Source: Bacteroidia bacterium
GTDB taxonomy: Bacteria > Bacteroidota > Bacteroidia > Bacteroidales > Prolixibacteraceae
Assembly (NCBI GenBank): GCA_025358025.1
Contig: JANYKW010000087.1
Coordinates: forward strand, 62,001-126,000
Length of the DNA stretch: 64,000 nucleotides
Direction: 5' to 3'
Positions 14,177 through 56,037 of the stretch are shown piece after piece. Below the pieces are notes generated by a model that worked only from the letters and a program-made list of their open reading frames with translations, was not told where the DNA came from and ran no database searches. A program made the translations under genes and the position numbers. How positions within the stretch are numbered: position 1 is the first letter of the stretch; the number at the start of each line of letters is the position of its first letter.

Positions 14177-16564
14177 TTAAAATTCAATCATTATTCCGAT
14201 TGTTGGAAGGATGGTTCCGGAGGATGAGGTGATGGTTTTCAATAAATACCTCGAAGAATCATTTGGATCTGTCAGCGGGATGCCATTGGCATCGGATTGC
14301 TGTATCAGGATTGGTGGCAGGTCAGCTTTGAAATTATAGGCATTCTGTATGTCAAAATAGAACATCATTGACCAGTTCTTATAATAGTAGGCTTTATCGA
14401 TTCGCAGATCAAGTTGCTGAAATGCATTGAGCCGCAGTTTGTTGAACTTACTGTAGTCGAGATAACCGCGGCCCTGTGCGTCCCATGCCTCTTTTATGGA
14501 AGACTTCTCTATATCCCAGGGAGTGTAGGGAGAACCTCCGATAAACCGCCACTTGAACCCAAAATCCCAGTCATGTTTAAAGCTTCGGGTAGAAGTGACA
14601 ACAAACAAATGACGGTTATCCCAGGCAGATGGGATATATACTCCTTTAATATCAGTGAATTCACTTCTGACATAAGTATAGGTTATTACTCCCTTGAACC
14701 CCAAAAGATCTTTGTACCGGGCCAACACTTCTGCCCCATAGGCGCGTCCATTGCTTGCGGAGGTAACTTCCTCATTGCCAAAAACTTCAAAATCAGCACC
14801 TTTACTGGCAAGTGAAACTGAATCCTTCATTGAGAAGGGATAATGGTCATAGCCCTTGTAGAATCCTTGGAGCGACATCTGAGTGGTCGTATTGGGTCTG
14901 AAATCAATCCCGGCAACCAGGTGATTGGCCCTTATCATCCGGATACCATTCTCCTTGTTAACCAGAACTCCTGCTCTGTTGCGGTACCCCAGCGTCGTGT
15001 ATGCCGGCAATTGCATGTACCTGCCTGCATTGAAGTTCAATGAGGTTCTGCCGCTCAACTGATAACTGGCTGAAAGCCTTGGTGAGAGATTGCTGAGCGG
15101 ATTGGCCATCTCAGAAGAATAGCTGTTTCCGTCTCCCCTGAGTCCAAGTGAGAGTAACAACCTCTGATCCAGCACATCTTTGGCAACCTGACCGAATAAT
15201 CCATATTTTACGAGATCGAGGTTGGACAAATAATTGAAGGATACTGCATTGCCCGATTCATATACTTTTTGGAAGGTCTGGTTGTAATAATTGGCATACT
15301 GCAAATCAGTCCCGTAGGTTATTTTATATTTGGATTTGGACAGGTAGTAATGTTCAAACCTGAATTTTGTCTCACTTTCGCGGGAATCATAATCCAAAAT
15401 CAGTTTAGCCGGATCTTCGGTATTATCCTGGTATTTTATCTGTTTGTTGTTGAGTGTATTGCGACTAACCACGTAGGTATTGTATCCGGAGGCATTGTAA
15501 TGCTTCAAAACCACCCCCAGGGTATAGTTCCATTGTTTGTTTTCAGGAAGATAGCTCAGGATATACCTTTGTTCTTCAGTCTCATTGGCATTAAGGTTTA
15601 GGACGGAATTGTCCAGGGCACCCAGACCAATAAAAGAAAGTTCAGTCTTGTCATTGATCTTCGTTTTAACTTTAAATTGAAAATCATTGTAGGTAGGAAG
15701 AAATGGAAGTTGCAAGGCACTAAATAAAAGCTGGAGGTAGGATCTTCGAACCGATGCCAAATAGGTGGTTTTTGCTGAAATCGGACCCTCGGACGAGAAG
15801 GCCAGGTCGGAAGCACCCACCGTCGCGCGGAATTTTGCTTTTTCGGCATTGGCGTTTTTCTGGGTGAATTCAAGAACCGAACTCATAGCATTACCTCGGG
15901 CAGATGGAAAGGCTCCGGAGTAGAAATTGACCTCCCTTACATAATCGACATTGATAATTCCTACAGGACCACCCGATGCACCTTGTGTGGAAAAGTGGTT
16001 CAAATTGGGTATTTCGACCCCGTCGAGGTAAAACTTGTTTTCGCTCGGACCCCCGCCTCTCACGATCACATCATTCCTGAAGGAGGCAGCGGAGGAGACC
16101 CCCGGAAGTGATTGAATTACCTTGGTTATATCACGATTACCTCCGGGATTTTTTTCTATCTCATCGATTCCGATGGTTCGCAGTGAGGTTGGGCTCTCTT
16201 CCCTTTTCGGAAAGAAATTCGGACGAACAACCACCTCTTCCAGCCGGACATCCTCCTCTTCCATGGGGATGTTGATGGTGGCACCTGCGGCCATGGTAAT
16301 TCTGAATGCTTCTGAGATATAGGTCTTAAAGCCTATAGCCGAGACTTTTAATTGGTAAAAACCGGGTGCAATATCTTTTAAAAGGAAATTGCCATCAAGA
16401 TCACTGTTGATCCCGTTCAGGGTATTTTGAATTATTACGGTTGCAAATTCGACAGGTTCGTTGTTTTTGGCGTTGTAAACACGTCCTTTGATGGTTCCCA
16501 CTGATTTTTGGGCCGAGGCATAAAAAACTGAGAGTAAGGAGAGTAATAGTATATATTTTCTCAT
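14177..16564 (-). CDS. TonB-dependent receptor with N-terminal carboxypeptidase-like domain
   Basis: This outer-membrane receptor of about 795 residues presumably imports a nutrient by TonB-driven transport. After a signal peptide (MRKYILLLSLLSVFYASAQ) comes a CarboxypepD_reg-like domain (GTIKGRVYNAKNNEPVEFATV). A plug follows (VIQSLPGVSSAASFRNDVIVRGG, FYLDGVEIP), then a beta-barrel ending in a C-terminal Phe. No SusD partner, regulator or substrate gene is adjacent, so the substrate is unknown. The track start at 16576 is TTG; the ATG at 16564 is preferred. Confidence 0.93.
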   Translation of the reverse strand: MRKYILLLSLLSVFYASAQKSVGTIKGRVYNAKNNEPVEFATVIIQNTLNGINSDLDGNFLLKDIAPGFYQLKVSAIGFKTYISEAFRITMAAGATINIPMEEEDVRLEEVVVRPNFFPKREESPTSLRTIGIDEIEKNPGGNRDITKVIQSLPGVSSAASFRNDVIVRGGGPSENKFYLDGVEIPNLNHFSTQGASGGPVGIINVDYVREVNFYSGAFPSARGNAMSSVLEFTQKNANAEKAKFRATVGASDLAFSSEGPISAKTTYLASVRRSYLQLLFSALQLPFLPTYNDFQFKVKTKINDKTELSFIGLGALDNSVLNLNANETEEQRYILSYLPENKQWNYTLGVVLKHYNASGYNTYVVSRNTLNNKQIKYQDNTEDPAKLILDYDSRESETKFRFEHYYLSKSKYKITYGTDLQYANYYNQTFQKVYESGNAVSFNYLSNLDLVKYGLFGQVAKDVLDQRLLLSLGLRGDGNSYSSEMANPLSNLSPRLSASYQLSGRTSLNFNAGRYMQLPAYTTLGYRNRAGVLVNKENGIRMIRANHLVAGIDFRPNTTTQMSLQGFYKGYDHYPFSMKDSVSLASKGADFEVFGNEEVTSASNGRAYGAEVLARYKDLLGFKGVITYTYVRSEFTDIKGVYIPSAWDNRHLFVVTSTRSFKHDWDFGFKWRFIGGSPYTPWDIEKSSIKEAWDAQGRGYLDYSKFNKLRLNAFQQLDLRIDKAYYYKNWSMMFYFDIQNAYNFKADLPPILIQQSDANGIPLTDPNDSSRYLLKTITSSSGTILPTIGIMIEF

Positions 16565-53959: not shown

Positions 53960-54230
53960 GATAAGTTGACAATCGAGAAATGACCATGAGCAATGAATAC
54001 GGGTGTGCGTTTTTTCATCACGGGGATATCTAGTTATAATTAAGTGAATCAAATAGTTATGTAGTGATAGTCAATTCACAATTGTAAACTGCCAATTGTG
54101 TCCAAGTTACCCCAATCTCTAATTTGTATCTCCCTGATCTTCAAAAAAATCCCGTCAGATTACCAACAAGTTATTAACAATATTCTGTATTTAAAGTCTT
54201 AAAATTGTTAACAACCTGTTGAGAAATAGT

Positions 54231-54267
54231 TTAGTGTAATAAAGTGTCAAGTATTGTCACAAAGTGT
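54231..54267. promoter_or_regulatory. Putative MraZ operator: four 7-mers at exact 10-bp spacing
   Basis: Boxes TTAGTGT (54231), AAAGTGT (54241), GTATTGT (54251) and AAAGTGT (54261) repeat every 10 bp with 3-base gaps. AAAGTG(T/G) repeats with 3-base gaps are the described MraZ-binding boxes of Mollicutes. The two exact boxes are 20 bp apart and the other two are partial matches. The third and fourth boxes lie across and next to the -33 element, fitting autorepression. Confidence 0.65.
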
Positions 54268-54284
54268 AATAATATATACCTTTA
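54254..54284 (+). promoter_or_regulatory. Promoter of the mraZ cell-wall cluster
   Basis: TTG (54254-54256) is followed after 20 bases by TACCTTTA (54277-54284), one mismatch from TAnnTTTG. The ATG of mraZ is 26 bases on. Transcription from here probably runs through the whole division and cell wall cluster. Confidence 0.55.
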
Positions 54285-54310: not shown

Positions 54311-54772
54311 ATGGTCTCGTTTTCGAATATATACAGTGCAACCGTTGACGGCAAAGGGCGAATTGTTCTTCCTGCTCCATTCAAAAAGGAGATGGGAGAT
54401 TCGCTTGAGCAACTGTTTGTAGTCGAAAAGGATGTTTATGACGCTTGTTTGAACCTCTATCCATATACTACCTGGCAAACAAAGGTAGAAAGATTAAGGA
54501 GACGGCTGAACATGGACGATCCTGTTCACAGCCAAATGCTGTCGAGGTATTACGAAGGAATTGTGACGGTGACGATGGCCGAAAATGGTCGTTTGAATAT
54601 ACCGGACGAGATGCTTCAATATGCAGGGATAACAAAAGAGGCTGTATTTACTGGTCAGGGAATGCGGATGAGGCTTTGGGAACCTTCCAGACACCAGGCA
54701 TCGAGACTAAGCGATGAAGATTACACCAGGTTGTATAGAGAGCTTCTTGGTGGTCCGATGGAAAATTTTTAA
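54311..54772 (+). CDS. mraZ: Transcriptional regulator MraZ
   Basis: MraZ is a DNA-binding regulator that represses its own cluster. The 153-residue protein contains two SpoVT/AbrB-like repeats (SATVDGKGRIVLPAPFKKEM and TVTMAENGRLNIPDEMLQYA), each with the usual basic loop. It is first in the cluster, just after the four-box operator. Length and order are typical. Confidence 0.96.
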   Translation: MVSFSNIYSATVDGKGRIVLPAPFKKEMGDSLEQLFVVEKDVYDACLNLYPYTTWQTKVERLRRRLNMDDPVHSQMLSRYYEGIVTVTMAENGRLNIPDEMLQYAGITKEAVFTGQGMRMRLWEPSRHQASRLSDEDYTRLYRELLGGPMENF

Positions 54773-54790: not shown

Positions 54791-55690
54791 ATGAGTGAAT
54801 ATCACATACCGGTCTTGCTGGAAGAAAGCATTGACGGACTGAACCTGCAACCCAACGGCATCTATGTGGATGTAACTTACGGGGGAGGGGGGCATTCGCT
54901 CCGTATCCTGGAAAAACTTCAGGGTGGAAAACTGGTTGCCTTTGACCAGGATGAGGACGCATTGCAAAATGTAGCAGACGACGAGCGGCTGATATTCGTC
55001 AACCATAACTTTAAATTTCTCAAAAATTTTCTGCGTTACCATGGCATCTCCAAAGTAGATGGTATTTTGGCCGACCTTGGAGTCTCCTCCCATGATTTTG
55101 ACCAGGCCGACCGCGGTTTTTCCTTTCGCTTCGATGGTCAGCTGGATATGCGCATGAACCAGTCGGCAGATAAAGATGCGGTTAAAGTCATTAATGAATA
55201 CGAGGTTTCAAAGCTTGGCGAAATGTTCAGGGAATACGGAGAGATACAAAACTGGCGAAATCTGGCTCAAACCATTGAACAGGCCAGATCGCCGCAAAAA
55301 ATTGTCACCATATCCCAATTTTTGAAAGCCATCGCCCACTGTGTCCCGGCAAAGATTGAGAAAAAATATCTGGCCCAGGTATTTCAGGCCCTGCGCATTG
55401 AAGTGAACAGTGAGATGGAAGCACTGGCATCCTTTCTGGAAAGTACCCTTGAGCTGCTGAATTCCGGAGGCAGGCTGGTCGTTATCTCTTACCACTCACT
55501 GGAGGACCGAATGGTAAAAAATTTTATGCGTTCAGGCCGCATAGATGGTAAAACGGAACAGGATTTCTATGGTCATTACCATCTGCCGCTGGAGGTAATT
55601 ACCCGGAAAGTGATCGTGCCGGGAGAGGTTGAGATTATGCAAAATCCAAGGGCCCGCAGTGCAAAGTTACGAATTGCTCAAAGGAAATGA
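54791..55690 (+). CDS. rsmH: 16S rRNA m4C1402 methyltransferase
   Basis: RsmH (MraW) methylates N4 of C1402 in 16S rRNA. The 299-residue protein begins HIPVLLEESIDGL and has the SAM-binding DVTYGGGGHS. GILADLGVSSHDFDQADRGFSFR and the C-terminal ISYHSLEDRMVKNFM follow. It ends with an ATGA overlap with ftsL (55687-55690), showing translational coupling. Confidence 0.97.
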   Translation: MSEYHIPVLLEESIDGLNLQPNGIYVDVTYGGGGHSLRILEKLQGGKLVAFDQDEDALQNVADDERLIFVNHNFKFLKNFLRYHGISKVDGILADLGVSSHDFDQADRGFSFRFDGQLDMRMNQSADKDAVKVINEYEVSKLGEMFREYGEIQNWRNLAQTIEQARSPQKIVTISQFLKAIAHCVPAKIEKKYLAQVFQALRIEVNSEMEALASFLESTLELLNSGGRLVVISYHSLEDRMVKNFMRSGRIDGKTEQDFYGHYHLPLEVITRKVIVPGEVEIMQNPRARSAKLRIAQRK

Positions 55691-56037
55691 CGATGGAAGA
55701 GACCAGGAAAAATAGCAGGTTTACGTTGGGTGAAATCTTAAATGGCCGATTTTTTGAGAGCGAGTTTTTTGTGCGAAACAAGCTTTTGATGTTTGTCATT
55801 TTTTTGATGTTGGTGGCCAACATATCTGTACGGTTCAAAACCGCCAAAGTTCTGCGTGAAGTCGACACGCTTGAGCGGGAGGTGAAAGAGCTAAGGGCTC
55901 ATTCGATTACCGTGGCAGCCGAAGTGATCAAGCTTACCAGGCCCTCAGAGATTCTTGACAGGATCAGGCAAAGCAACCTTGGACTCGAGACTTCCAAAGA
56001 GCCGCCAAGAAGAATTTATGTAGACAAAGAGTTATAA
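55687..56037 (+). CDS. ftsL: FtsL-like division protein
   Basis: This small bitopic protein of 116 residues has one membrane helix (about 33-50, LLMFVIFLMLVANISV). A coiled-coil-like periplasmic segment (VLREVDTLEREVKELRAHS) follows. Its place between rsmH and the PBP gene is that of ftsL. FtsL sequences are poorly conserved, so the call rests on position and topology. It overlaps both neighbours by a few bases. Confidence 0.88.
   Translation: MTMEETRKNSRFTLGEILNGRFFESEFFVRNKLLMFVIFLMLVANISVRFKTAKVLREVDTLEREVKELRAHSITVAAEVIKLTRPSEILDRIRQSNLGLETSKEPPRRIYVDKEL

Follow-up and report, generated by a model that had tools for sequence, protein, structure and literature searches.

Directly upstream of mraZ, the first gene of the dcw cluster in a genome from the Bacteroidia, lie four short repeats, and the question raised by this locus is whether they form an operator for the MraZ protein and whether any other regulator acts at the same promoter. 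The repeats were found in a 64-kb stretch of DNA (64,000 nt; the window) from a metagenome-assembled genome whose nearest named relatives are Prolixibacteraceae (Bacteroidia bacterium, Mariniphaga sp. and Prolixibacter). The gene that follows them (54311..54772, + strand) encodes a protein of 153 aa with two MraZ domains (loops DGKGR and ENGR), identified as MraZ by Pfam, with PF02381 matching in two stretches (E 2e-15), and by its similarity to solved MraZ structures (1N0E, 9QLR, 9QLG, 9SX6 and others); the NCBIfam MraZ models match it below their own curated cut-offs. mraZ is followed on the same strand by rsmH (mraW; 54791..55690, PF01795, E 5e-97), the second gene of the dcw operon, an FtsL-like gene (55687..56037, PF19579) and the rest of the dcw cluster, and a divergent acyltransferase gene lies 5' of mraZ.

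Analysis of the region between the two divergent genes revealed four 7-mers on the + strand, starting at 54231, 54241, 54251 and 54261, that follow each other at steps of exactly 10 bp and lie 44 to 80 bp 5' of the mraZ start codon (54311). They read TTAGTGT (box 1, 54231..54237, with its core GTGT at 54234-54237), AAAGTGT (box 2, 54241..54247), GTATTGT (box 3, 54251..54257, with the core TTGT) and AAAGTGT (box 4, 54261..54267), so that at least three boxes with a GTG core stand in 10-bp register on one strand. When arrays were scored on both strands of the window by their match to AAAGTG[T/G] in 10-bp register (maximum 28), this array reached 23, the top score, compared with 19 for the next independent site, and dinucleotide shuffling of the 345-bp intergenic region gave no score of 23 or more in 5000 trials (best shuffle, 21). 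With the same scoring, periods of 7-9 and 11-15 gave at most 19, and AAAGTGT-N13-AAAGTGT occurred once in the window compared with 0.03 expected. The coordinates and the shuffles bore out the original prediction of four 7-mers at 10-bp steps before mraZ; the span that it assigned to them, 54231-54284, contains the repeat array (54231-54267) but also takes in the −7 promoter element, which is no part of the array.

The array was restricted to one promoter. Genome-wide scans, which consist of pattern matching only, returned two matches to a three-box pattern in the 4.29-Mb genome, the mraZ array and a site at window position 15985, whereas the reversed-pattern control returned five. The site at 15985 was thus at background level and was rejected as a second operator, and a wider MraZ regulon for this pattern was likewise rejected, since only background matches occurred elsewhere in the genome.

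A predicted −33 TTG (54254-54256) lies inside box 3, 20 nt 5' of the predicted −7 element TACCTTTA (54277..54284, + strand), which is of the TAnnTTTG/TAnnTTTAC type. The promoter, predicted from sequence, thereby combines the features of Bacteroidota primary-sigma promoters: TTG at about −33, a −7 element of the TAnnTTTG type and a spacing of about 19-21 nt. Alignment of 75 Bacteroidia upstream regions on TAnnTTT showed that the −7 element reads TAnnTTTG or TAnnTTTAC, that the array stops just 5' of it, and that the −7 element and the box positions are conserved jointly. The TTGT core of box 3 was preserved in nearly all close relatives sampled, both within the clade of the window and among related GTGG-box genera, where the neighbouring boxes read GTGT or GTGG, and we attribute its retention to the fact that TTGT is also the −33 element. 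The simplest reading would be that a single sequence in box 3 serves both polymerase and MraZ. The two exact and two partial boxes originally listed are correct as sequences, but describing box 3 as partial overlooks that its TTGT is kept as the −33 element.

Conservation of the boxes upstream of mraZ in relatives, proposed as a check on the original prediction, was found in every Bacteroidota class sampled. After near-identical sequences were removed, 111 mraZ upstream regions were compared (53 from the family, 30 from other Bacteroidia and 28 from other classes), and a GTG[GT]-N6-GTG[GT] pair, corresponding to the 10-bp step, was present in 80 (28/53, 27/30 and 25/28, respectively). Among the same 111 regions, pairs at spacings other than multiples of 10 numbered at most four per group, and pairs on the opposite strand numbered zero to two. 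The remaining 25 of the 53 family regions lack the strict pair because the boxes of several genera have changed by drift and now read ATGG, TTGG or GTGACT, still in 10-bp register.

The array was also absent where mraZ is absent, a small test that comprises one genus and a few scattered, distant genomes. One genus of the same family, g11 (G011, G031, G043 and G054; L185-L188), has lost mraZ and kept rsmH; neither a family protein search nor Pfam found MraZ in these four genomes, three of which are 99% complete, and no tandem boxes were found within 400 bp upstream of rsmH. Eight more genomes without mraZ had no array within 200 bp of rsmH, and these distant genomes count for little because rsmH in them often closely follows another gene and lies inside another operon.

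These comparisons bear on the possibility that no protein operator is involved and that the A+T-rich promoter owes its 10-bp repeats to curvature or to an UP-element-like feature. A-tracts do recur between the boxes, as such a feature would have it, but the information lies on the TG core and the flanking G/T letters and not on the A-tracts, the repeats are strand-specific in orientation, and they are lost together with mraZ, leaving curvature a very improbable explanation. Given the shuffles, the conservation across the phylum and the missing array where mraZ was lost, it is almost certain that the four boxes are the MraZ operator at the mraZ/dcw promoter of this Prolixibacteraceae genome. 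Conservation and this parallel loss also uphold the earlier proposal that the operator covers the −33 element.

The letters of the boxes vary between clades. GTGG is the box of most Bacteroidota, and GTGT is a derived variant specific to the window's clade, in which the fourth core letter (+3 position) is T in 45/45 boxes. Another Prolixibacteraceae clade (L106, L111, L112, L115, L116, L118, L125 and L141) keeps the 10-bp register but with boxes that read GTGACTG, and in this clade the second MraZ loop, ENGR, has become ESCR. Residue 14 of MraZ, in the D-x-K-G-R loop, varies alongside the boxes, being Gly in 44/45 GTGT-clade proteins, Asp in 25/25 family proteins with GTGG boxes and Glu in 12/13 with GTGACT, and we offer a link between this residue and box specificity as a hypothesis only, which the solved MraZ structures could guide. 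We did not accept residue 14 as the sole determinant, since each type of box essentially corresponds to a single clade and since Ala or Asp occupies this position in Flavobacteria with GTGG boxes and Gly14 occurs in L026 and L092, which also have GTGG boxes.

The array was correctly identified and is, by comparison with published MraZ operators, mostly of a known kind. A repeated GTG motif is common to B. subtilis, E. coli and mycoplasmas (PMC7761207). In Mollicutes, according to Fisunov et al. 2016 as quoted in PMC8475190, AAAGTG[T/G] boxes are present and the cluster is repressed; the Mollicute operator and the array in the window share direct AAAGTG[T/G] repeats with 3-nt spacers, a position 5' of mraZ and a single occurrence in the genome, and they differ in that box 3 of the window is TTGT, is embedded as a Bacteroidota −33 element and is preceded by phased DnaA-box-like sites. 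The operator of E. coli K-12 (Eraso et al. 2014) resembles the array in having the core at 10-bp steps, in the same orientation and register, 5' of mraZ, whereas its fourth box letter is G instead of T and its boxes lie 3' of the −10 element (PMC7761207) instead of over the −33 element. Burkholderia cenocepacia MraZ binds four 7-mers with 3-nt spacers, the same layout as in the window, although that operator overlaps the transcription start and the array in the window overlaps the −33 element (PMC7761207). The contrast originally drawn between a Mollicute-type box and an E. coli-type box did not survive this comparison, since E. coli K-12 reads AGTGGGAAATTGTGGGGCAAAGTGGGAATA, that is, GTGG at 10-bp steps. 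Nor is a separate Mollicute type borrowed here; most Bacteroidota use GTGG. A literature search that covered papers outside subscription found none on MraZ in Bacteroidota, so we make no claim of priority; what is new here is the description across the phylum, the fusion of a box with the −33 element, the clade-specific drift of the boxes and, above all, a phased second array.

From these features we infer how MraZ might bind, repress and be arranged on the DNA. MraZ would act as a toroidal oligomer, each subunit of which carries two AbrB-like domains, and consecutive subunits would dock on successive boxes along the same side of the helix. Since box 3 coincides with the −33 element, MraZ bound there would shut out RNA polymerase, and the dcw operon would be autorepressed by promoter occlusion.

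The second array lies 5' of the MraZ boxes and consists of sites resembling DnaA boxes that follow TTWTNAACA (consensus TTATCAACA), one letter off the classical DnaA box TTATCCACA. The window contains one exact TTWTNAACA site, TTATTAACA (54171..54179, + strand), and three imperfect ones: TTACCAACA (54160..54168, + strand), which comes 11 bp before the exact site, and TTGTTAACA (54205..54213, + strand) and TTCTCAACA (54217..54225, − strand), which form the left and right halves of a palindrome. The family upstream regions contained 91 TTWTNAACA sites, distributed over 49 of 53 regions, compared with 8.8 in shuffles (maximum 18), and other Bacteroidia contained 17 compared with 3.1. Same-strand sites in the family were spaced by 11-12, 21-23, 43 or 63 bp in 32/32 pairs, that is, by whole helical turns, and their distance to the MraZ array was helically phased as well (R 0.56, n=61, Rayleigh p ~5e-9, a test that treats related sequences as independent). 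In Flavobacteria-like genomes, one DnaA-box-like site precedes the first MraZ box by 2 bp. Upstream of rsmH in the four g11 genomes that lost mraZ, almost no DnaA-like sites were left, so that both arrays are gone there.

One reading of these sites, which extends the MraZ operator explanation and does not replace it, is joint control by DnaA and MraZ, in which the TTWTNAACA sites would be DnaA boxes and filaments of DnaA-ATP phased with the MraZ array would activate the dcw promoter or repress it, depending on the state of replication. The chances that this reading holds seem to us evenly balanced. The enrichment in the family speaks for it, as does the exact TTATCCACA, which was found four times in other Bacteroidia compared with 0.08 in shuffles, and so do the whole-turn spacings and the phasing with the MraZ array, although the Rayleigh test counts related sequences as independent. 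A search of 140 whole genomes with the 11-bp tandem pattern gave 39 matches compared with 18 for the reversed control, and the location of ten of the 39 directly 5' of mraZ and of one near dnaA also favours DnaA, as does the enrichment of these site types upstream of dnaA (pooled family: TTWTNCACA, 12 compared with 1.7; TTWTNAACA, 13 compared with 4.7). There is in addition a precedent in E. coli, where, by the account of Eraso 2014 given in PMC4446571, an MraZ site overlaps a DnaA box at mioC; sites for both proteins thus occur together at that promoter, as proposed here, but mioC is a different gene, and phased tandem arrays do not figure in that account. Weighing against DnaA are the one-position difference between the dominant variant TTATCAACA and TTATCCACA, the presence in the window of a single exact site beside three imperfect ones, and the origin region of a complete relative (G027, at the GC-skew minimum), whose cluster of sites is modest and not the best-scoring.

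Several further observations concern dnaA and the origin. No DnaA-type site was found upstream of dnaA in the locus examined in the window genome, and one lies inside the gene. A weight matrix for the DnaA-like site, used at a low threshold, picked up mainly A+T-rich sequence and failed to distinguish the origin. The array itself was rejected as a replication origin, because in G027 the skew minimum (~3.151 Mb) and mraZ (2.798 Mb) are ~350 kb apart. In this genome dnaA (1.697 Mb) is also far from the skew minimum, and the origin there would therefore not be beside dnaA. The window genome (G000) also contained ten weaker matches to the DnaA model, many of them short, to its central ATPase part and in open frames of ~240-280 aa, which are probably IstB-like transposition ATPases.

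Alternatively, the TTWTNAACA array may be the operator of a regulator unrelated to DnaA, a reading that we regard as a substantial possibility, somewhat below an even chance. The palindrome TTnTCAACA-N2-3-TGTTGAnAA in the window's clade would suit a dimeric regulator, and the array is also found, in two genomes, 5' of a HU-CCDC81/SPOR-type gene, which accounts for two of the 39 tandem matches. Many relatives, on the other hand, have direct tandem sites and no palindromes, and exact TTATCCACA and TTTTCCACA occupy the same place in other Bacteroidia. DnaA is the best candidate for the second array, at about even odds. As regards the HU-CCDC81/SPOR-type gene itself, tandem TTWTNAACA sites occur upstream of it (L256, L273 and L279-L283), and 12 de-duplicated upstream regions of this gene contained 11 such sites compared with 1.1 in shuffles; a tandem TTTTCAACA pair was also seen near ruvC in G040 (L253).

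The MraZ operator, previously characterised in only a few model species, is thus extended to an entire phylum whose promoters are of an unusual type. The DnaA-box-like array directly upstream may prove to be a second, replication-linked input, for which we see an equal chance either way. We consider it conceivable, if just short of an even bet, that the Bacteroidia dcw promoter is a compound switch, in which a whole-turn DnaA array abutting and phased with an MraZ array, whose middle box is the −33 element, would couple replication initiation to expression of division and cell-wall genes. Should the sites of this array be DnaA boxes, they would provide a link that can be tested directly between the initiation of replication and expression of the division cluster in Bacteroidota, a phylum in which this coupling is poorly described.
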